Shown here: one piece after another, positions 38,258 to 51,583 of the stretch | Numbering within the stretch: position 1 is the stretch's first letter | Layout: the number at the start of each line of letters is the position of its first letter | Source: Devosia sp. YR412 | Lineage (GTDB): Bacteria; Pseudomonadota; Alphaproteobacteria; Rhizobiales; Devosiaceae | Assembly (NCBI RefSeq): GCF_900110945.1 | Contig: NZ_FOFL01000001.1 | Location: 1,240,001 to 1,304,000, forward strand | DNA length: 64,000 bases | Reading direction: 5' to 3' | Translations under genes and position numbers: made by a program | Notes under the pieces: generated by a model | What the model saw: the letters and a program-made list of their open reading frames with translations, nothing else | Databases searched by the model: none | What the model was told of the DNA's origin: nothing

Positions 38258-39318
38258 GGGGCGACCTCCGCTTCCAGGCGATCAACCCAGACCGAACAGC
38301 CGGAGGCGGCGATCGGGGCCTTGGCGCCGAGGCGTTCGAGCAGGCGGTCATATTGCCCGCCGGAGGCCAGAACATCGCCATTGGGGCCGGTCATTTCGAA
38401 GACGATGCCGGTGTAATAGTCGAGCCGCGGCGAGAAGCTGGCGTCAAAGCTGACGCGCGTTTCGCCCAGGCCATTGAGATGGCGGCGGATGGCGCGGATC
38501 GGGGCGCCCAGCATCAGCCGGTGCCGGCTGGCCAGCGCCTCGACCTGGGTCAGCGCCTGCAGCACCGGGCCGGAAATGGCCAGATAGTCGCGCAGCAGTT
38601 TCAGTGTCGCGGCCGGGACATGCGCGGCATCGAGCGCCTGCTGTTCGAGATAGCGGTCGGCGATCTCGTCGGGGGTACGGCCCTCGGAGAGGCTGAGGCC
38701 GGACGCGACCATCTGCTCGGTGACGCTCTCGACCAGCGTGTCGCGGCCGGGCTGCTGTTCGCGGATCACGTCGGGCGCGGCTTCGAGGCGCGTCAGCAGG
38801 CGATCGAGCGCCTCGGTATGGCCGAAACGGTTGCGGATGCGCGGGCGCCAGGCGTCAGGCATATCGGCCTGCACCAGCAGCGCTTCGAACAGGCCGACGC
38901 CGCCAAGGCGGATGTCCGGCGCCACGCCGAAGATCGACAGCGCCGCGCGGGCAAAGGTGAGAACCTGGTCGAGCGCCACATCCCCATCGGGCTGCGCCAG
39001 AAGTTCCACGCCGGCCTGGTCGAATTCGGCCGGGCCGGTGTCGCGCTGGCGGAAGATCGGGCCCATGTAGGAAAAGGCCGCCGGTTCGCCGACGCCATCG
39101 GCGATATAGGCGGTGACGATGGGCAGGGTGAAATCCGGCCGCAGGCAATATTCGGCACCGGTGACGTCCGTGGTCAGCAACAGACGACGGCCGAATTCCT
39201 CGCCGGCGAGGTCGAAATAGGGATCGGCGGACAGCAGCAAAGGCGGCGTGGCGCGGGTGGCGCCCTGCGCTTCGACAAGGGCATCCAGCTGCGTGCGGCG
39301 GAAGGCGGCATTGGTCAT
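38254..39318 (-). CDS. hisZ: ATP phosphoribosyltransferase regulatory subunit HisZ
   Basis: The 354-aa protein resembles the catalytic core of histidyl-tRNA synthetase (CLRPDFTLPIVTAYI, SYMGPIFRQRDTGPAEFDQAG, SPRLDYYTGIVFEM, GGQYDRLLERLG) but lacks the anticodon-binding domain, as HisZ does. It activates short HisG and mediates histidine feedback. The start MTNAAFRRTQLDAL at 39318 is chosen; a longer frame runs into a repeat element. hisS lies upstream, separated by that repeat. Confidence 0.94.
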   Translation of the reverse strand: MTNAAFRRTQLDALVEAQGATRATPPLLLSADPYFDLAGEEFGRRLLLTTDVTGAEYCLRPDFTLPIVTAYIADGVGEPAAFSYMGPIFRQRDTGPAEFDQAGVELLAQPDGDVALDQVLTFARAALSIFGVAPDIRLGGVGLFEALLVQADMPDAWRPRIRNRFGHTEALDRLLTRLEAAPDVIREQQPGRDTLVESVTEQMVASGLSLSEGRTPDEIADRYLEQQALDAAHVPAATLKLLRDYLAISGPVLQALTQVEALASRHRLMLGAPIRAIRRHLNGLGETRVSFDASFSPRLDYYTGIVFEMTGPNGDVLASGGQYDRLLERLGAKAPIAASGCSVWVDRLEAEVAP

Positions 39319-39345
39319 GATGCCCACTCCATCGCAAACCCAAGG

Positions 39346-39481
39346 GTTGTCATCCCGGCGCAGGCCGGGATCCATCCTGAGATGCCCCCCCATGCCGCCA
39401 GATCGCAAGACGTGACTGCACTACCTTGCGGCCGATCAGAGATCTCGAGATGGATCCCGGCCTGCGCCGGGATGACATCGC
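39346..39481. repeat. Intergenic palindromic element, family B copy 4
   Basis: Arms GTCATCCCGGCGCAGGCCGG and CCGGCCTGCGCCGGGATGAC enclose the variable centre. The core reads GCGCAGGC instead of CTTGAGCC, changed in both arms so pairing is kept, which is a compensatory change. Between hisS and hisZ. Confidence 0.85.
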
Positions 39482-39502
39482 GGATGGGGAGACGACAGAC
39501 GC

Positions 39503-41113
39503 TCATTGCTCGCTCAGCAGTTTCTGGACGGCAGCAACGAGCTCGTCGCGCTTGATCTCGAACTGGCCGGGGCGGGCGGCCTTCCATTCGGCATTGTCGG
39601 TGATGGCGGCGGCGGCCTGCTTGCCGGCGATCAGGTCCTTGATCTGCAGGATCCCCTGCTCGCGTTCCTGGCTGCCTTCGATGATGACGATGGGCGAATT
39701 GCGCTTGTCGGCATAGGCGACCTGCTTGCCGAAATTCTTGGTATTGCCCAGGAACATTTCGGCACGAATGCCGGCTTGGCGCAGCTCGGCGACCATGGCC
39801 TGGTAGCCGGCCATCTGTTCCTTATCCATCACTAGCACAACGACCGGGCCGGCCGGTTCGGACGCATTCAGCTTGCCGGTCAGCTTGAGCGCATTGGCAA
39901 GGCGCGAGACGCCGATGGAAAAGCCGGTGGCGGGCACCGGCTCGCGACGGAAGCGGGAAACGAGGCCATCATAACGGCCACCGCCGCCGACGGAGCCAAA
40001 CACCACGTCCTGGCCCTTCTCGTTCTGCACCTTAAAGGTCAGTTCGATTTCGAAGACGGGGCCGGTGTAATATTCGAGGCCACGGACGACGGATGGGTCG
40101 ATCTTGATGCGGTCGGCGTTGTAGCCAGCAGCCTGAAAAAGACGCCCCATTTCGTAAAGTTCTTTATAGCCGTAGTACGCACTCGTATTCGAGTCCACTT
40201 GAGACCCGATGCTACGAAACACCATCGCAATGTAGCCAAGCGTGGCCGCGGAAGCCTGAGCAACTTCATCGACCCGGGTGACCCCGGCGGGAGCCGCATT
40301 GACCTTATCCAATGACCAAAGCTCAAAACGCGGTTTGTTGGTGTCTTCGGTAGCAATAGCGACCGGAACTTCTTGCATAGTGATGGGTGCGAAAAGCAAC
40401 AGCAGCGCCTTTGCCTGCACCTCGGACAGTCCGGCCCCTTTGGTAAAGTCGCCGCTTTCGTCCAATCGACCCTTCTGAAGCAGCTGCTCGACCCCTGTCG
40501 CGCCAATTTTGTCAAACTTATCAATCGACCTCATGACGACAAGCCATTGATCATCGTCGCTGATGCCCATCGCCTGCCTCAGACCATCCAGCACCTTGCG
40601 GTTGTTGACCCGGACGACATATTGCCCCTGCAGCCCCAGTGCATCCATGACATCAGCCATCATCATGCACATTTCGGCATCGGCCTCGGGGCCGCCGGCG
40701 CCGACGGTGTCGGCATCGAACTGCATGAACTGGCGGAAACGGCCCGGGCCGGGCTTTTCGTTGCGGAAGACATAGCCCTGGCGATAGGAGCGATAGGGCT
40801 TGGGCAGGGTCTCGAAATTTTCGGCGAAATAGCGAGCAAGCGGCGCGGTGAGATCGTAGCGCAGGCTCATCCACTGCTCGTCGTCGTCCTGCAGCGAAAA
40901 CACGCCGGCATTGGGCCGGTCGGTATCGGGCAGGAATTTGCCGAGGGTCTCGGTGAACTCGAACAGCGGCGTTTCAACCGGATCGAAGCCATAGCGTTCG
41001 TAGACCGCCTTGATCTTGTCGATCATCTGGCCGACAGCGGCGATCTCGCCCGGCGTGCGGTCCTCGAAGCCGCGCGGCAGGCGCGGGGCGATCAGCTTGG
41101 TCTTTTCGGTCAT
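39503..41113 (-). CDS. hisS: Histidyl-tRNA synthetase
   Basis: The 536-aa class II synthetase has [13 protein letters not shown] at the start, motif 2 in [20 protein letters not shown], and [14 protein letters not shown] plus GGGGRYDGL for the HisA/HisB boxes, with a C-terminal anticodon-binding domain. It is of the longer alphaproteobacterial type with a large insertion. DNA between about 40120 and 40620 has clearly lower GC (about 55% versus more than 62% on both sides) and different third-codon choices, which suggests a recombined segment. The start at 41113 ([11 protein letters not shown]) is chosen over a longer frame. A tRNA-His lies about 5 kb away. Confidence 0.95.
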
Positions 41114-41207
41114 CTGGCAGTCCTTGGAAGTCGCGGTGTTGTTACCGGATCGGGGTGATGGAGACAACAGGCGGCGGGCGAGTGTTTGGTGCAATGGCAG
41201 CCCCATC

Positions 41208-41335
41208 CACGGTGTCACCCCGGCGAAGGCCGGGGCCCATCTCGAGATCAGGCCGCAGCCGCAAGGTGGTTCCGACGACCATCCTGCGCACCTTGCATCT
41301 CAGGATGGATCCCGGCCTTCGCCGGGATGACACCG
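41208..41335. repeat. Intergenic palindromic element, family B copy 5
   Basis: Arms GGTGTCACCCCGGCGAAGGC and GCCTTCGCCGGGATGACACC are inverted complements; the core is GCGAAGGC in place of CTTGAGCC. Inner GCCGCAAGGTGG is present, but its partner is only partly kept (GCGCACCTTGC). It lies upstream of hisS and between it and the DUF1127-like pair. Confidence 0.85.
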
Positions 41336-41384
41336 AGGGGGTGGCAATGAAGGGGCCGATCCTGAGATCAGCCCCTCCCAGCCG

Positions 41385-43146: not shown

Positions 43147-43287
43147 AGTGCGAGCTTAGCGCAGGCTTTATCGCGGCGCTAACCAACAGACTTATCAATG
43201 GTTTCACCATGTGGATTCACGGCGTGTTGGCCCTTGGCTGGCACTATCCGCGCAAGCCGGAAATCCGGCAAACACAGGTGGATGAGC

Positions 43288-43914
43288 ATGGTCGGGATCA
43301 AAACGGGTGGTGCAAGCCTTCTGGCATTGCTGATGGCGCTGTCGAGCGTCTTGCCGGCGACGGCGCAGGGTCTGCAGCAGGGCTGGCGCTTTGCGCCCCC
43401 GCCGGGCATCACCGTGGTCAATCATCCGCCGCGCCATGCGCTGCAATTGCAGGCCAATACCCAGGTCAATCCGGTGTTCCTGCGACAGGTGGTGCAATAT
43501 CCGACCAGCGAACGCAGCGGCACGCTGGTGGTCGATACGCGGGCGCATTTTCTATATTTCGTGCTGGGTGACGGCCGCGCCCTGCGCTACGGCATCGGCG
43601 TCGCCAAATCCGGCTTTGAGTGGAGCGGCACGCATCAGGTGACGCGCAAGGCCGAATGGCCGAGCTGGACGCCGCCGGCCGAAATGCTGCAGCGCCGGCC
43701 AGAGCTGCCGCGGCATATGGAAGGCGGACCGAACAATCCGCTCGGCGCGCGGGCGCTTTATCTCGGATCGACGCTCTATCGCATCCACGGCACCACCGAG
43801 CCGTGGAGCATCGGGCAGAATGTTTCGTCAGGCTGCATCCGCATGACCAACGCAGACGTGATCGATTTGTACGAACGCGTAAAACTTCACAGCAAGGTGG
43901 TTGTCCTTTCCTAA
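43288..43914 (+). CDS. L,D-transpeptidase (YkuD family)
   Basis: The 208-aa protein has an N-terminal signal sequence (MVGIKTGGASLLALLMALSSVLPATAQ) and a YkuD catalytic domain with RIHGTTEPWSIGQNVSSGCI, where HGT and the S-x-GC Cys are the catalytic residues. It forms 3-3 cross-links or attaches proteins to peptidoglycan in the periplasm. I chose the ATG at 43288 because AGGTGG sits 6 nt upstream; 43282 and a longer frame at 43198 are alternatives. Confidence 0.93.
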   Translation: MVGIKTGGASLLALLMALSSVLPATAQGLQQGWRFAPPPGITVVNHPPRHALQLQANTQVNPVFLRQVVQYPTSERSGTLVVDTRAHFLYFVLGDGRALRYGIGVAKSGFEWSGTHQVTRKAEWPSWTPPAEMLQRRPELPRHMEGGPNNPLGARALYLGSTLYRIHGTTEPWSIGQNVSSGCIRMTNADVIDLYERVKLHSKVVVLS

Positions 43915-43962: not shown

Positions 43963-46005
43963 ATGGGTGCCTGTTCGATGCATGGTCTGTCTTCCCTGAT
44001 CCGCCGTTTCGGTCGTGACGAAAGCGGCGTCTTCGCCGTGATTTTCGGGCTGATGGCCATCGTGCTGGTCGCGCTCGGCGGCGCCGTGGTCGACTATGTG
44101 TCACTGGAGCAGACCCGCAGCCGCAGCCAGGTGGCGCTCGACGCCGCAGCGCTGGCGCTGCATTCGCGTATCCTGGTGACCACGCCGGACAAGGCCAAGA
44201 TCCAGAGCGATGCGCAGGCCCTGGTCAATGACCGCGTCGGCCAGTCCGGCATTGTGGTAATCAACAATACGGTGATCGATAAGACGCAGGGCTCGCTGTA
44301 TTTCACCGCCAACATGACGGTGAATACCTTCTTCGTGAACCTTGTCGGCGTGAAGACGCTTAGCGCCAATATCCAGTCCGAGGTCAAGCGCGGCTCGATG
44401 GATGTCGAAGTGTCGGTTGCCGTCGATATCACCGGCTCGATGAATGACACTGTGCCCAAAGCCGGCAGTGGCTGGCAGACCGAAACCAAGATTGATGCGC
44501 TGGAGCGCGCCCTCGGGCAGCTGATCGACCTCGTGGTCAAGGATTCCCAGACGCCAAGCTATTCCAAGATGGCCATCGTGCCCTATTCGATGGGCGTCAA
44601 TGTCGGCAGCACCTGGGCCCCGACCATACGCGGTGCGGTGAAGGCCCCAACTGCGATTACCGCGATCACCTGGTCAACCGGTGGAGACAAGACGGCCACC
44701 GATGCCGTGGTGCAGAACTCCAGCAACGGCTACGCCGTGGAAGTGACCTCAAACAACCACGGCTTCGTCAACAACGACTATATCTATGTTTCGCCCACCC
44801 CCCTGTTTCAAGGCATGAGCCAGATCGGCAACACCATTTTTCAGGTGGCCTATGTCGATGCCAACAAGTTCCGGCTTAAGGACCTCAGTGGCAATGTCGT
44901 CAATGGCCGCTATTACGGCTCCTACAACAAGCTGACGCCCTACACCGTCACCAAATGCCTGGTCTCGACCTGCGAGCTCGTGGTGCAGTCGGCCAACCAT
45001 GGCCTGGCTGCTGGTGCCAATGTTTATATTTCGGGCGTCAGGGGCATGAACAGCTATTCTGCCATCAATGCCTACAACCGCTACAACCAGTATCCGACCA
45101 GCGACAGCACGGCCTATAATTGGATCAACAACCAGTCGGTCGACAATAACGACTACCGCTTCCTTGTCTGGCAGATCGGCGCGGTGGCGACCAATACCTT
45201 TGTGCTCAGCGGCACCGCCAGGACCAATGGCAAGAATTACGGCACCTATACCAGCGGCGGCACTGCCGCTTGCGTCACTGCCGGCTGTCAGTACTACCTT
45301 TACCAAAACCGCTACAGCTCAACCAATACCAACACCAGCTGGCGCCTGCAGCAGATCAGCACCTGCGCGACGGAGCGCACCACCAATGGCCTCAGTGACG
45401 CCTCTCCAGCCACGACGCTGATCGGCCGCAACTATCCGACCGCCGCAAATGCCTGCCCGGATGTGGTGATCCAGCCGTTGACCTCCAACAAGACCGTGCT
45501 GCATGCGCTGGCGGATGACCTGCCCGCCGTCGGCTCGACCGCCGGTCACCTCGGCATTGCCTGGGGCTGGTATATGGTATCGCCCAATTTTTCCGGTCCG
45601 TGGCCGGCAGCCAGCCAGCCCGCGCCCAAGACCGAAAAAAACGTGATCCGCGCCGTGGTGCTGATGACGGACGGCGCCTTCAACACCTCCTATTGCAACG
45701 GCGTGATCAGCCAGATTTCCGGCACCGGCAGCGGTGACGAAAACACCAAGATCAACTGTGATCCCGCCAATGGCGATTCCTTCACCCAGGCGCAGAAGCT
45801 GTGCGATGCGATGAAGGCCGCCGATCCGCCGGTGCGCATCTATACCGTGGCTTTTGACGTCGGCGACATCCAGGCCGCCAAGGACATCATGGCCAATTGC
45901 GCCACCGACTCGTCCTACGCCTTCGAAGCCACCACCGGCGCAGACCTCGCCTCCGCCTTTTCCAAGATCGGCGAAAACCTGTCCTACCTGCGCGTAACGC
46001 GGTGA
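43963..46005 (+). CDS. TadG-like VWA-domain protein with inserted beta-modules
   Basis: The 680-aa protein starts with a TadE/F/G-type segment (RRFGRDESGVFAVIFGLMAIVLVALGGAVVDY), then a VWA domain with MIDAS DITGSM at residues 155-160 and later AVVLMTDGAFN. Between these lie two modules (about 252-322 and 328-434) with the pattern NHGF/NHGL - VYISG/YIYVS - NxFxL - YYGSY/YGTYTSGG, which resembles the E1 FCCH-type repeats found in phage tail proteins. Cysteines occur in pairs (KCLVSTC, ACVTAGC). It is probably exported and cell-surface or pilus-related. No tad operon is adjacent. Gly/Asn/Ser/Thr-rich codon choice in the insert differs from flanks. Confidence 0.82.
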   Translation: MGACSMHGLSSLIRRFGRDESGVFAVIFGLMAIVLVALGGAVVDYVSLEQTRSRSQVALDAAALALHSRILVTTPDKAKIQSDAQALVNDRVGQSGIVVINNTVIDKTQGSLYFTANMTVNTFFVNLVGVKTLSANIQSEVKRGSMDVEVSVAVDITGSMNDTVPKAGSGWQTETKIDALERALGQLIDLVVKDSQTPSYSKMAIVPYSMGVNVGSTWAPTIRGAVKAPTAITAITWSTGGDKTATDAVVQNSSNGYAVEVTSNNHGFVNNDYIYVSPTPLFQGMSQIGNTIFQVAYVDANKFRLKDLSGNVVNGRYYGSYNKLTPYTVTKCLVSTCELVVQSANHGLAAGANVYISGVRGMNSYSAINAYNRYNQYPTSDSTAYNWINNQSVDNNDYRFLVWQIGAVATNTFVLSGTARTNGKNYGTYTSGGTAACVTAGCQYYLYQNRYSSTNTNTSWRLQQISTCATERTTNGLSDASPATTLIGRNYPTAANACPDVVIQPLTSNKTVLHALADDLPAVGSTAGHLGIAWGWYMVSPNFSGPWPAASQPAPKTEKNVIRAVVLMTDGAFNTSYCNGVISQISGTGSGDENTKINCDPANGDSFTQAQKLCDAMKAADPPVRIYTVAFDVGDIQAAKDIMANCATDSSYAFEATTGADLASAFSKIGENLSYLRVTR

Positions 46006-46372: not shown

Positions 46373-49030
46373 ATGGATGCCGACTGGACCACATCGCCAA
46401 GCGCCCGCCGCGTGCTTCAGCATGCCGCGGATTCGCGCCCGGCCTGGCTGTGGTCGCAGGATGGCCAGCAGTTGCTGTGGGAAAACGCCGCTGCACCGCT
46501 GTTCCTGGCCAAGCTCAAGAAGCACGGGCTGAAGCTGGCGCCGCCGGCCGTGCCGATCAAGGGCCAGATTGCCCGCAATATCCGCCTTGGCTCGCCCGGC
46601 CGCACCAGCCTGGCCCGCATCCAGTTTCTGGCCGGCGACAAGCCGACCTCAAGCACCTGCGCCACGACGCCGCTCGTCTGGCAGGACGGCCAGACCGTGC
46701 TGCTGGTGGTCGGTGTCGATCCGATTGCCGACGAAGTGCTGGCGGCGGCGGGCGACGATTCGGATGTGATAGAGGACGCCGCCGCCGTCACCGTCGAAGA
46801 GACAGTCGAACATACCGAACTCCCTCCTGTGGTGGAGGCCGAGCAGACTATCCCGGCTGAGGTGGACGCTGCTCACGCTTCATCCGATGAACAGGCGACA
46901 GAGACACAGATCGAGTCGGAGACCACCGAACCCTTCATGCCGCAGGTCGATGATATCGCCGCCGCGCAGGATGCGCTGGACGAGCCCGAACATATCGACA
47001 CGCAAGACACGCCTCGCCCCGAGGTCGCCGAAGAGGTGACCTATGCGCAGGAGCTGGAAAACTGGCGCGAAGCCGAGCCGGACGGCGTTGCGACGCTGGA
47101 GCTGGTGACCGAGCCGGAACACCCTGCCCAGGATCCAGAGCCGGAAGACGCCCCCGCAGCCAGCCGCCTGAGCCTTTTGGTCGATCGCCTGGCAGCCGAC
47201 GAGGCGCTGTTCACGCCGCTGACCGAGGCCGATGACGCGCCGCTTAATCTGGTCACCGAGCCGGAGCCCCCTGCCCTGGCCGAGAGCGCTGACGATCGTC
47301 CCGCGCCCGAAGAGGCCGAACCGCCGCTTGAGCTGAGCGATGCCGAGGCGGATCAGGACGATCTGGTGGCGCTCGACGGCGTGACCGATCCCGTGGAATC
47401 TTCGGCCGACGAGCCGGAAGTTGCCGACAGCAACAATGAACGCATGGCCAAGGCCTTTGCTGATCTGCCACCGGCCGATCCCGAGGCCGTCGAGCGCGTG
47501 TCGCGCTATAATTTCGACGAGCTGGCCCGCATCCTGACCGACCGGGTCGGCGATCCGGCGCCGGCTGCCCCGGCAGTGCCCGCCCCTATTGATCCACAGC
47601 GCACCGGCGCCCTGATCAACCTCGGTGGCGAAACGCTGGTGCTCAATCGCCTGCCGCTGGGCATCTTGGTGTTCCGCGACCAGCAGGTGCTGTTTGCCAA
47701 TCGCGCCATTACCGAAATGGTTGGTTATGGTTCGGTGGAAAGCCTGCGCGCTGCCGGTTTGGCCGCAGTCTTTCCGGCCGCCGGACCCGATGGCGAGGGT
47801 GCCGGCCCGGTCAATCACCTGGTGCAGCGCGACGGCACTTTGGTGCCGGTCACCGCGCGACTGCAGTCGATTTCCTGGCAGGGCAAGCCGGCGCTGATGC
47901 TATCGGCCAGCACCACCGAGGTGCGCACCGGCCACGAAGCGGCCGTGGCCGCCTTTGCTCGCAACTTTGCCGATCTGCGTGGCGATGGCTTTTTCGAAAC
48001 CACTCGCGCCGGCGTGATCAGCAGCATCACGCCCAATAGCGCCAGCCTGCTCAATGACCAGGGCATGCTCGAAGGCAAGGCATTGTCGGCGCTGATTGCC
48101 CCCATCGATGGCCCCGAACTGCGCGCCTTCCTTGAGCGTCCGGCCCGCTTTGCCGAGACGGAACGTCCCGTGCTGACCCTGCGTGCCGCATCGGGCATCG
48201 CCGACATCATGCTGTTTGCTCAGGGCCAGGCCGGGGTCATTACCGGCTATTTCGGCTTCGTGCGGGCCCGCGAGGCGACACCCGTCCGCCTGCCGGCCAG
48301 CAGTGGCGATGCCGATCCGGCGCTGCTGGCGCGGATCAGTCGCGGCGTGCGGCGGCCGCTCAATACCATCATCGGCTTTGCCGACATGCTGCGCTCGCAG
48401 GCGGGTCTGGTGCAGGATGAGCGTTACGAGAGCTATGCGCAGGATATCAGCACGGCCGGCCAGGAAATCGCCGCGCTGGTCGATGAGCTGGACGACTATG
48501 CCCGCCTGCGCGATGGCCGTTACCTGCCGCAGCGCGCCAGTATCGAGCTGACCGGCCTGCTCGAAAGCTGCGTGTTGCGCATTCGCCAGCAGGCCAGCGG
48601 CGCCCGCGTCATCGTGCGCAATGCGATCTCCGAAACCCTGCCGCGGGTCACCGCCGATCGCGCCTCGCTGGCCCAGGCCGTGCTCAACCTTCTGGCCAGC
48701 GCCATCGACCAGACGCCGACCGGCGGCGGCGTGGTGATTTCGGCGCAGCGTGGCGACGATGGCAGCATTGCCGTGCATGTGCGCGACAGCTCCAACAATG
48801 CCGTCGACATGGCCGAGCGCTTCGTGGTGTTCCGCGATGGCGTCAGCCGCAGCGGCCAGGCCATGGTGCCGGTGCGCTCGAGCATCGGCCTTGCCCTGAC
48901 GCGGTCGCTGTTGGCGGTGAATGCCTTCTCTCTCTCGGTCGATCCGGCCGGCGAACAGGGCATGCTGTTCACCATGATTATCCCGGCCGATCTGGTGGAA
49001 AAGACTGCAACACCGCAAGTCGAAGAATAA
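46373..49030 (+). CDS. Large PAS-domain pseudo-histidine kinase
   Basis: The 885-aa protein has an N-terminal PAS-like domain (residues 10-115, SRPAWLWSQDGQQLLWENAA), a long acidic disordered linker (about 125-385, rich in Glu/Asp/Pro/Ala), two further PAS-like segments (about 420-640) and a kinase-like C-terminal half. The H-box reads RISRGVRRPLNTIIGFADML: the phospho-acceptor His of SHEIRTPLN is Arg (residue 657). N box (NLLASAID) and G box (VRDSSNN for the usual VRDTGIG) are also degraded. PdhS/PleC-like family is plausible by N-terminal layout. A scaffold or receptor role, like DivL (Tyr in place of His), is inferred. Confidence 0.82.
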   Translation: MDADWTTSPSARRVLQHAADSRPAWLWSQDGQQLLWENAAAPLFLAKLKKHGLKLAPPAVPIKGQIARNIRLGSPGRTSLARIQFLAGDKPTSSTCATTPLVWQDGQTVLLVVGVDPIADEVLAAAGDDSDVIEDAAAVTVEETVEHTELPPVVEAEQTIPAEVDAAHASSDEQATETQIESETTEPFMPQVDDIAAAQDALDEPEHIDTQDTPRPEVAEEVTYAQELENWREAEPDGVATLELVTEPEHPAQDPEPEDAPAASRLSLLVDRLAADEALFTPLTEADDAPLNLVTEPEPPALAESADDRPAPEEAEPPLELSDAEADQDDLVALDGVTDPVESSADEPEVADSNNERMAKAFADLPPADPEAVERVSRYNFDELARILTDRVGDPAPAAPAVPAPIDPQRTGALINLGGETLVLNRLPLGILVFRDQQVLFANRAITEMVGYGSVESLRAAGLAAVFPAAGPDGEGAGPVNHLVQRDGTLVPVTARLQSISWQGKPALMLSASTTEVRTGHEAAVAAFARNFADLRGDGFFETTRAGVISSITPNSASLLNDQGMLEGKALSALIAPIDGPELRAFLERPARFAETERPVLTLRAASGIADIMLFAQGQAGVITGYFGFVRAREATPVRLPASSGDADPALLARISRGVRRPLNTIIGFADMLRSQAGLVQDERYESYAQDISTAGQEIAALVDELDDYARLRDGRYLPQRASIELTGLLESCVLRIRQQASGARVIVRNAISETLPRVTADRASLAQAVLNLLASAIDQTPTGGGVVISAQRGDDGSIAVHVRDSSNNAVDMAERFVVFRDGVSRSGQAMVPVRSSIGLALTRSLLAVNAFSLSVDPAGEQGMLFTMIIPADLVEKTATPQVEE

Positions 49031-49245: not shown

Positions 49246-50289
49246 ATGACGACCAAGCGCCTTGCCCTGACCCTTCTCGGTTCGGTGGCCCTCTGCGGCC
49301 TAGCCATGCCCGCCTTTGCCCAGAGCGGCGAAGTCAATATTTACAGCTATCGCGAGCAGAGCCTGTTGCAGCCGCTGCTCGACAGCTTCAGCGCCGAAAC
49401 CGGCATCAAGGCCAATGTGCTTTATGCCGGCGACGGCCTGCTCGAACGCGTTGCCGCCGAGGGCGAGCTATCGCCCGTCGATGTCGTGCTCACCGTGGAT
49501 ATCGGCAATCTGGTCGGTGCCGAAGAGCAGGGCCTGACCCAGCCGATCACCACCGCGGCGCTGGCCGAACGTGTGCCCCCCGCATTCCGCGACGAAGACG
49601 CCAACTGGACCGCGCTGTCGCTGCGCAGCCGCGTGTTCTATGTCTCGAAGGATCGCGTCGACGCCACCGCGCTAACCTATGAAGACCTCGCCAGCGAGGA
49701 ATGGGCCGGACGCGTCTGCACCCGTCCAGGCGACCACGCCTATAATATTGGCCTCATTGCCCACTATATCGCCGTCAATGGCGAAGAGGCCGGCCGCGAA
49801 TGGCTGACCAATGTGCGCGACAACCTGGCTTTTGCCCCCAATGGCAATGACCGTGCGCAGGTCAAGAATATCCTGGATGGCACCTGCGATCTGGCGGTGG
49901 TCAATACCTATTACATGGGTGCGATGCTCAACAACGACGCCGAGCCGGAGCAGAAGGATTGGGCCGCTTCCGCCCGCATCATCTATCCGAATGCCGAGGC
50001 CGACGGCACCCAGGTCAACGTCGCCGGCGGCTTCATCGCCAAGCATGCGCCGAATGCCGAGAACGCCAATGCGCTGATCGAATTCCTGCTGTCGGACGAA
50101 GCCCAGGCCATCTATGCCGATACCAATTACGAATTCCCGGTGGTGGCATCGGCGCCGATCAACGAACTGGTCGCCAGCTGGGGCACGCTCAAGGCTTCTC
50201 CGGTGGCGCTGACCGAAGTGGCGGCGCATCGCGCTACGGCAGCGGCACTGGTCGATGAGCTGAAGTTCAACGAAGGCCCGCAAAAGTAA
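49246..50289 (+). CDS. Ferric iron ABC transporter substrate-binding protein (FutA/FbpA type), copy 1
   Basis: The 347-aa protein has a signal peptide (...GLAMPAFAQSGEVNIYSYRE) and the Fbp/Fut fold: SFSAETGIKANVLYAGDG, SPVDVVLTVDIGNL, and the ferric-iron tyrosines in VVNTYYMGAML. It binds Fe3+ in the periplasm. A paralogue lies 260 bp downstream with the same length. The 215-bp upstream region has two dyads: CGGTTC-TTT-GAACCG at 49119-49133 and CCTCGCG/CGCGAGG at 49159-49180. GGGAGA lies 7 nt before the ATG. Confidence 0.92.
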   Translation: MTTKRLALTLLGSVALCGLAMPAFAQSGEVNIYSYREQSLLQPLLDSFSAETGIKANVLYAGDGLLERVAAEGELSPVDVVLTVDIGNLVGAEEQGLTQPITTAALAERVPPAFRDEDANWTALSLRSRVFYVSKDRVDATALTYEDLASEEWAGRVCTRPGDHAYNIGLIAHYIAVNGEEAGREWLTNVRDNLAFAPNGNDRAQVKNILDGTCDLAVVNTYYMGAMLNNDAEPEQKDWAASARIIYPNAEADGTQVNVAGGFIAKHAPNAENANALIEFLLSDEAQAIYADTNYEFPVVASAPINELVASWGTLKASPVALTEVAAHRATAAALVDELKFNEGPQK

Positions 50290-50311
50290 GGCTTATGACG
50301 TAAGCGAAGAG

Positions 50312-50438
50312 TACCACCACCCAACCCCTTCGGGGCCACCCTCCCCACAAGGGGGAGGGATAAGAGGCATCGAGTTCGCTGAGCGGGCAATTCCCTCCCC
50401 TGAATGGGGAGGGTGGCCCCGGAGGGGTCGGGTGGGGT
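50312..50438. repeat. Intergenic palindromic element, family A copy 3
   Basis: Arms ACCCCTTCGGGGCCACCCTC and GAGGGTGGCCCCGGAGGGGT are inverted complements of about 35 nt. The centre includes GATAAGAGGCATCGAGTTCG. Copy 5 at 58384 is an inverted version of the same element including this centre, so the two are related by more than their arms. It lies between the two iron-binding protein genes. Confidence 0.8.
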
Positions 50439-50551
50439 GATGACTGGCCGCTGGCCAAAGTGGTTTCCTCGATCCAAAGCTGATCCACCAACTCAGCTTG
50501 ACACCTCCCCCCGCCCAGTCGCACAACCCTTGGTCATAGATGGAGATTTCT

Positions 50552-51583
50552 ATGACGGGCTGGCGGAAAATTGGCTGTATCGCAGCGCTGCTGACGCTGG
50601 CGGGACCGGCCGTCGCCCAGAGTGGCGCCGTCAATGTCTATACCTATCGTGAGCCCGGCCTGATCCAGCCGCTGCTCGACGTCTTCACCGCCGAAACCGG
50701 CATCAAGACCAATGTGCTGTTTGCCGCGGACGGGTTGATCGAGCGCGTTGCCGCCGAGGGCGAGCTGTCGCCAGCTGACGTAATCATCACCGTCGATATC
50801 GGCAACCTGGCCAATGCCAAGGAGATTGGCATCACCCAGCTGATTTCCGCCGCAGCGCTGGCCCGCGCGCCGGACCAATATCACGACCCCGACGGGCAAT
50901 GGGTGGCGCTGTCGCTGCGCGCCCGGGTGTTTTATGCCTCGGTCGATCGGGTGACCGAAACCGCGCTGAGCTACGAAGATATCGCCGGGCCAGAATGGAA
51001 GGGTCGCCTCTGCACCCGTTCGGGGCTGCATGCCTATAATATCGGGCTGATCGCCACTCGCATCGCCCATTGGGGCGTCGACCGGACTCGCACCTGGCTG
51101 ACCGCCGTGCGCGACAATCTCAATCACGCCCCGACCGGCGCCGACCGCGATCAGGTCAAGCAGATCTTCGACGGCACCTGTGACCTGGCCATCGGCAATA
51201 CCTATTATATGGGCCTGATGCTGACCAACGCAGCCGAGCCTGAGCAAAAGCAATGGGCTGAGGCTGCGCGGATCATCTATCCCGACGCGACCGGCGATGG
51301 CACGCAGGTCAATCTCTCCGGTGCGGTTGTCGCCAAATATGCGCCCAACAAGGCCAATGCCGACCTGCTGGTGGAATTCCTGCTCTCCGACGAAGCCCAG
51401 CATCTCTATGCCAGCGGCAATTACGAGTTCCCGGTGGTCGATGGGGTCGAAGCCTCCGAACTAGTGGCCAGCTGGGGTGCGCTCAAGGCCGACACCACGC
51501 CCATGGTCGAAATCGCCGCCCATCGCAAGGAAGCGGCGGCGCTGGTGGATGAAGTCAAGTTCGACGAAGGCCCGCAGAACTGA
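50552..51583 (+). CDS. Ferric iron ABC transporter substrate-binding protein (FutA/FbpA type), copy 2
   Basis: The 343-aa protein is a close paralogue of the 49246 product (same motif order, IGNTYYMGLML tyrosines, SPADVIITVDIGNLAN, signal peptide ...LAGPAVAQSGAVNVYTY). The ATG at 50552 is chosen because TGGAGA lies 6 nt upstream; the ATG at 50540 overlaps that site. Divergence is moderate, so the duplication is not recent and the two may differ in ligand or affinity. It is joined to the permease gene by an end-to-start overlap (see there). Confidence 0.92.
   Translation: MTGWRKIGCIAALLTLAGPAVAQSGAVNVYTYREPGLIQPLLDVFTAETGIKTNVLFAADGLIERVAAEGELSPADVIITVDIGNLANAKEIGITQLISAAALARAPDQYHDPDGQWVALSLRARVFYASVDRVTETALSYEDIAGPEWKGRLCTRSGLHAYNIGLIATRIAHWGVDRTRTWLTAVRDNLNHAPTGADRDQVKQIFDGTCDLAIGNTYYMGLMLTNAAEPEQKQWAEAARIIYPDATGDGTQVNLSGAVVAKYAPNKANADLLVEFLLSDEAQHLYASGNYEFPVVDGVEASELVASWGALKADTTPMVEIAAHRKEAAALVDEVKFDEGPQN

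Follow-up and report, generated by a model that had tools for sequence, protein, structure and literature searches.

The window analysed here, a stretch of 64,000 nucleotides from Devosia sp. YR412 (contig NZ_FOFL01000001.1, positions 1,240,001 to 1,304,000), holds a gene that we take, with a probability of roughly 0.8, to be the Devosia counterpart of CpaL, an orphan TadG-like minor pilin most likely capping the Tad pilus, with an ectodomain that is an exchangeable head on a conserved pilin socket and that has been replaced as a block several times in Devosia and also in Caulobacter. The architecture is already known as that of CpaL from Caulobacter crescentus (PMC12607857), where the accessible text presents it without the FCCH identity of two of its modules, and exchange of the ectodomain seems to be the new part. 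A literature search with most subscription papers and preprints outside its scope found no exchange of TadG or minor-pilin heads; within the same scope the points made here on FCCH domains in bacteria and phage tails, and on Devosia with Tad pili, were not found in print.

CpaL is a candidate mechanosensor and Tad pilus tip protein. The FCCH naming identifies barrels that its discoverers could not assign, and ties CpaL to phage tail proteins. If the head moves as a block on a constant pilin socket then the specificity of the tip is directly testable by head swaps, for which close relatives differing in head provide ready-made matched pairs. If true, head exchange would reprogramme the pilus tip much as tail-fibre exchange does phages.

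Gene and domain architecture

The open reading frame is intact and encodes 680 amino acids. The probable true start lies at 43978, preferred because the N-termini of relatives align there, and gives a product of 675 residues. Residue numbers are counted from this start and are five lower than those of an earlier note on this DNA. The protein comprises a pilin-like module, the first half of a von Willebrand factor type A (VWA) domain, two tandem beta modules and the second half of the VWA domain (Table 1). The pilin-like module scores 30.9 bits with PF13400 against a cut-off of 22.3. The MIDAS motif DITGSM, which the earlier note had located at residue 155, is confirmed at residues 150–155, and TDG occupies residues 564–566. 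All five MIDAS residues, D150, T152, S154, T521 and D565, are present, the last two being invariant in a 65-row alignment of the window protein and its relatives. Sixty-four of 80 loci entered that alignment; the other 16 were incomplete, unreadable, of doubtful start or near-duplicates.

Table 1. Features of the locus and of the encoded protein, in window positions
Feature	Position	Strand	Evidence and remarks
L,D-transpeptidase (YkuD) gene, immediately upstream	43198..43914	+	PF03734, E 4e-22; upstream in 28 of 30 Devosia loci (exceptions L004 and L014)
Whole gene, CpaL/TadG-type orphan minor pilin	43963..46005	+	Sole PF13400 match in the genome at E up to 0.001; 39.1% identity over 604 aligned positions to a Caulobacter 626-residue protein (L240) with the published CpaL numbering
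Pilin-like module, residues 1–137, Tad/TadG type: N-terminal hydrophobic helix and small beta-sheet	43978..44388	+	PF13400, E 3.5e-7; model helix 15–66, strands 93–137; L240 residue 147 aligns to residue 137
VWA first half, residues 138–227, MIDAS DITGSM at 44425–44442	44389..44658	+	VIA-align to the Mfa5 vWF domain, Z 21.9, rmsd 2.6, 210 residues, model range 138–675; D150/T152/S154 align to D160/T162/S164 of L240
E1_FCCH-type module 1, residues 237–318	44686..44931	+	Best PF16190 stretch; module profile 63.1 bits; E1 enzymes top in Foldseek
E1_FCCH-type module 2, residues 329–435, poorly predicted loop at about 361–380	44962..45282	+	Module profile 60.4 bits
VWA second half, residues 436–675, MIDAS T521 and D565	45283..46002	+	Model; VIA-align; T521/D565 align to T470/D515 of L240
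tRNA-His, 23 nt past the tadG stop, downstream of the exchanged segment	46028..46104	-	ARAGORN
Large histidine kinase gene, next downstream	46373–49030		HisKA over cut-off; HATPase_c and PAS weak

An AlphaFold2 model computed on the 65-row alignment has a mean pLDDT of 88.8 and a pTM of 0.77, and places all-beta segments where the modules lie. Means of pLDDT over 10 residues in module 1 range from 75 to 96 in the whole model and from 90 to 97 in a model of the modules only. A low-confidence loop, residues 364–373 of the whole model, recurs in the modules-only model at roughly that position.

The earlier note expected a Pfam scan to return PF16190, VWA and TadE/G domains. The pilin part of that expectation stands, PF13400 being over its cut-off; PF16190 falls below its own and the VWA profile has no match to the window protein even at E 10. 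The same VWA profile matches 56 of the 65 family members, and the predicted fold of the window protein is clearly that of a VWA domain. In VIA-align the first nine rows are pilus adhesins, led by Mfa5 (Z 21.9), PitA (19.4), SpaC (19.3), RrgA (19.3), GBS104 (18.9) and PilB (18.8). Integrin I-domains come next at Z 18.8, so the lower rows are tied, and their closeness to the adhesins means that the match indicates fold, not function. With phmmer against PDB sequences there is one weak match, again Mfa5 (E 0.0089), and the whole model compared with the PDB matches VWA pilus adhesins and E1 enzymes. The VWA pilus-tip adhesins Mfa5, SpaC, RrgA, PitA and PilB, which share the VWA fold with the window protein and are its best structural matches, come mostly from other pilus classes.

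Could the two segments be ordinary parts of a VWA fold? Module-free homologues belonging to other families within the order (L220 and a pair of L223 proteins) have a continuous VWA domain with a short loop at the module site, which lies between the end of the '..VRG' strand and the 'CV.ER' segment; in L221, a further relative truncated at its N-terminus, low-complexity sequence occupies this site. The two modules therefore appear to have been inserted into a complete VWA domain, and this comparison, together with the predicted all-beta modules, bears out the view that the segments are distinct from the VWA fold. The number of modules varies, as there are three in L083 (5001–7082) and one in L260–L262 of Caulobacter.

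Identity of the inserted modules

The earlier note put the modules at about 252–322 and 328–434 and read them as E1 FCCH-type domains of the sort common in phage tail proteins. A profile built from the modules of the family finds two domains in the window protein close to these limits (Table 1); the window protein is itself among the sequences used, so that positives from this profile are partly circular and its zeros are not. L083, with its three modules, was left out of alignment A4.

PF16190 gives the window protein alone 28.3 bits, under the cut-off of 29.5, and when the profile is run against the Devosia genome the gene comes second, at E 0.29, behind a stretch on another contig at E 0.10. 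Both values are insignificant, and at that laxity four of 14 control genomes also match. NCBIfam has no match for the window protein. The FCCH assignment therefore rests on the family and on the fold. Across the family, the window protein and 64 relatives, PF16190 matches 64 of 65 members at E up to 0.01 (best 1.5e-27), while it matches none of 16 TadG-VWA proteins with the other ectodomain type described below; judged on these sequences, chance is not a reasonable explanation for the match. Caulobacter L240 reaches 93.7 bits in two stretches (best 317–379), and L083 reaches 95.9 bits.

The modules-only model (pLDDT 86.7, pTM 0.83) leads to the same assignment. In a Foldseek search of the PDB, E1 enzyme entries occupy ranks 1–24, among them 2v31, an isolated FCCH half-domain, at rank 23; the best E value is 1.5e-3 and none reaches 0.001.

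Resemblance to phage tails is a family resemblance, more evident in the relatives than in the window copy. The PHROGs family phrog_584, a major tail protein family, matches 59 of the 65 family members (best E 5.7e-22), with its best stretch in the first module in nine relatives scanned singly, and PHROGs has no match for the window protein itself. When the modules of L084 were compared by tblastn with 50,697 phage records, 33 matches were obtained at E up to 0.01, the best (2e-14) being tail tubular protein B of a pelagiphage; EXVC032P shows 53.7% identity to the L084 modules over two pieces. With the modules of the window protein itself as query, four phage records come up at E up to 1 (best 0.04), and the phage link therefore rests on the relatives. 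In a library of predicted structures restricted to viral proteins, 14 matches reach E 0.001, including two named FCCH-domain proteins and one baseplate wedge. We regard the family relation between the modules and phage tail proteins as sound, with a divergent copy in the window. Related modules are common to both systems; the phage FCCH-type domains, in phrog_584 and the pelagiphage tail tubular protein B for example, are built into virion tail proteins, unlike those of the Devosia protein, which sit in a pilin-VWA protein.

The weak scores of the window copy, below the Pfam cut-off, at 0.04 against phages and short of 0.001 in the PDB, are what would be expected of convergent beta modules with a superficial likeness to FCCH. 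Such convergence is highly improbable in view of the near-complete PF16190 coverage of the family, the phrog_584 matches, the E value of 2e-14 for L084 against phages and the run of E1 entries at the head of the PDB list.

Relation to CpaL and the Tad pilus

The suggestion that this architecture was undescribed in Tad pili has to be withdrawn, since CpaL has the same design. As set out in the accessible text of the CpaL study (CCNA_0199 as printed; mBio 2025, PMC12607857), that protein of 626 residues combines a pilin-like module with a vWA domain split by two tandem beta modules, carries a five-residue MIDAS (D160, T162, S164, T470 and D515) and is encoded by an orphan gene outside the tad cluster. 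Its authors obtained no strong Dali match for the barrels, and the Dali list published for CpaL overlaps the list of pilus adhesins obtained here with VIA-align. Caulobacter L240 has the published length of CpaL and its five MIDAS positions, each aligning to the corresponding residue of the window protein (Table 1), and its best PF16190 stretch falls inside the published beta region of CpaL. Two further Caulobacter proteins of 625 residues, L232 and L239, share all five residues and their positions; the numbering therefore marks CpaL orthologues and not one protein, and L240 may be a near orthologue instead of CpaL itself.

The Devosia protein resembles CpaL in its pilin-like module, split vWA domain, two beta modules, five-residue MIDAS and orphan gene. 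It differs in sequence (about 39% identity, measured to L240), in coming from a different order of Alphaproteobacteria and in its longer second module. A second comparison is with the KilN/TadG tips of Tad pili (PMC12075869), which, in the accessible part of that paper, are likewise large TadG-like minor pilins with a variable C-terminal domain and a proposed role in customising the tip. In that case a single Myxococcus genome encodes four paralogous tips, which are used to kill prey, whereas Devosia has one locus with alternative heads in different species.

Does the genome encode a pilus for such a protein to cap? A Tad locus at about 527–537 kb of the same contig encodes Flp, a prepilin peptidase, CpaB, a secretin, the T2SSE ATPase CpaF, two T2SSF proteins and two TadE proteins. 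The window gene lies at 1284 kb, about 755 kb from the Flp gene, and no other protein of the genome matches PF13400 at E up to 0.001. CpaF is present in all 30 Devosia genomes searched, the copy in G026 having an internal stop, and some Devosia genomes have further TadG-like genes elsewhere.

Since the gene is that far from Flp and adjoins an L,D-transpeptidase gene, the protein might have a role unconnected with the pilus, acting with the transpeptidase in the periplasm or at the cell wall as a VWA protein and not as a pilus tip. The conservation of this neighbour in 28 of 30 loci and the orphan position are in keeping with such a role, as is an imperfect prepilin cleavage site: the published pattern is G/A-X4-F/E (accessible text of PMC12607857), and the window protein has V18, where L240 has A29, in place of G/A before F23, with G17 one residue too far. 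We nevertheless consider it distinctly improbable given the Tad pilin helix, the co-occurrence with a Tad machine and the pilus phenotypes reported for CpaL, a protein of the same architecture, in the accessible text of PMC12607857. There, deletion of cpaL lowers the proportion of piliated swarmers from about 53% to 6% and confers intermediate resistance to phage phiCbK.

As a CpaL-type minor pilin, the protein would have its N-terminal helix packed in the fibre alongside the pair of TadE-type minor pilins encoded at the Tad locus. The VWA domain and its MIDAS metal site would point away from the fibre, and the domain would bind a surface; the two FCCH modules in the VWA loop could project as a spacer or as a second contact surface. 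An adhesive role is plausible. The tip location is suggested by homology with CpaL, whose own placement is a prediction; the in situ map shows no density for the vWA domain (PMC12607857, accessible text).

Alternative heads at one locus

Of 37 genomes of the genus, 30 were typed at this syntenic locus, and there the ectodomain is of two types. The FCCH ectodomain, with a D-I/V/L-TGSM motif, is found in 11 genomes; the remaining 19 have a second type, marked by LDNSGSM and by an insert of another kind that contains cysteines. With the module profile, all 11 proteins bearing the FCCH head show two modules and the 19 others show none. One gene, L022 (genome G007, 1534–2601), stops at 356 residues, possibly a broken gene or a sequencing error, and its head type was counted by motif.

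On a tree of rpoB and cpaF DNA from 29 genomes head type needs seven changes, six of them forced by starred branches; shuffled labels need about nine on average, and 52 of 500 shuffles were as low as seven. G026 was omitted from this tree owing to a broken frame, G004, G017 and G035 are represented by cpaF only and G003 by a partial rpoB. On the hisS tree nine changes are needed, four forced, which is no fewer than with shuffled labels. From these comparisons head type appears to track species kinship little if at all. These trees and that of the heads are all 'quick' trees. The head tree, computed with the simpler LG+G4 model, omits 12 of 76 readable related proteins as duplicate or incomplete, and L047, L056 and L069 are labelled Devosia-like in it despite other or broader group names. 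In it the FCCH heads of Devosia cluster together, separate from their Caulobacterales counterparts (support 91, not starred), so exchange within the genus fits better than repeated import from Caulobacterales.

Pairs of close relatives with different heads define the borders of the replaced segment. Genomes G003 (FCCH head) and G018 (other head) group as sisters on both trees. They share 89.7% DNA identity across 4.9 kb, up to 53 nt before the MIDAS motif; there is no blastn match from that point to 57 nt past the G003 gene stop, and identity then resumes at 92% (318 columns) and 87% (4.7 kb). In the protein the pilin module is 85% identical and the ectodomain 27%. The second pair of sisters, G006 and G036, is 91% identical up to a point within the pilin module, at about residue 60, and 93% again from 13 nt past the stop, with no blastn match in between; here the tRNA-His gene starts 8 nt after identity resumes, and the proteins share 73% identity over the pilin module as against 27% over the ectodomain. 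In both pairs 120-column windows outside the block are 82–99% identical, except at the borders and in a single gap-rich window (73%), and those inside are mostly at 35–56%, with one at 65%.

Caulobacter provides a third case. L268 has an LDNTGSM head and no modules, L269 an FCCH head. Identity of the two is 89% over a 2.1-kb stretch that runs 17 nt into the MIDAS codons; blastn then finds no match until 82 nt beyond the stop, where identity resumes at 93.7%. Protein identity is 81% before the MIDAS and 33% after it. A non-FCCH head is present in five of the Caulobacter proteins read (L263–L267).

Chimeric assembly was considered as a cause. It is a concern for the first pair, as G003 corresponds to a metagenome bin and G018 consists of 100 contigs with an estimated contamination of 4. 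Replacement borders also occur on long contigs, of G006 (4.18 Mb), G107 (5.2 Mb) and G097 (0.8 Mb), and chimerism is therefore rejected as the general explanation.

These data are read most economically as a conserved socket, formed by the pilin module, and an exchangeable head, the ectodomain, whose replacement would proceed by homologous recombination anchored in the conserved DNA on both sides. The same distribution might arise if the two ectodomain types were ancient tandem paralogues, of which each species kept one by deletion without exchange between lineages. Deletion between tandem copies would leave a hybrid gene too; in six of 80 related loci (four from Caulobacter, one from Caulobacteraceae and one from Hyphomonas) a sequence matching the other type in whole or in part lies close to the FCCH gene, and in several genomes of the Caulobacter group a single contig contains several TadG-like genes. 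However, with six of the seven changes forced, both copies would have to be kept along the backbone of the 29-genome tree and lost again and again, and none of the 20 Devosia loci among the 80 has the other type beside an FCCH gene, the one direction in which this search was made. We consider such sorting of paralogues unlikely.

Recombination of the head suggests a broader proposition, to which we would give even odds: that Tad pili of Devosia and Caulobacter carry exchangeable VWA heads on a CpaL/TadG socket, swapped through homologous recombination in two conserved stretches of DNA, one within the gene at the MIDAS or ahead of it and one just past its stop. Exchange would reprogramme which surface or phage the tip meets, and the FCCH head would be reusing modules common to phage tails. 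Selection might come from surfaces or from phages that use the pilus. The latter are one possible force because loss of cpaL leads to intermediate phiCbK resistance and far fewer piliated cells, as given in the accessible text of PMC12607857.

In the Caulobacter-group set of 61 genomes, from which some of the proteins were read, G116, G102, G112, G083, G123, G104 and G078 have five to eight tip-protein matches each, several of them close together on one contig, which suggests arrays of alternative tips.

The chromosomal neighbours of the locus are constant across the Devosia genomes examined. A tRNA-His gene lies downstream in all 12 other Devosia-type loci scanned (two from one genome), at distances from 13 nt to about 1.3 kb, and hisS is on the same contig within about 1.5–3.5 kb of the gene in all 30 Devosia genomes. 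The histidine kinase gene, kept downstream in many Devosia loci, could be a sensor partner or a mere neighbour. Two features of the window were noted by eye. Short repeated stretches at 39300–41350, PACAGMT-like and DPGLRRDD-like in translation, are probably dispersed intergenic repeats around his genes, and at 49246–51583 two look-alike tandem reading frames resembling substrate-binding proteins are followed by a permease-like one.
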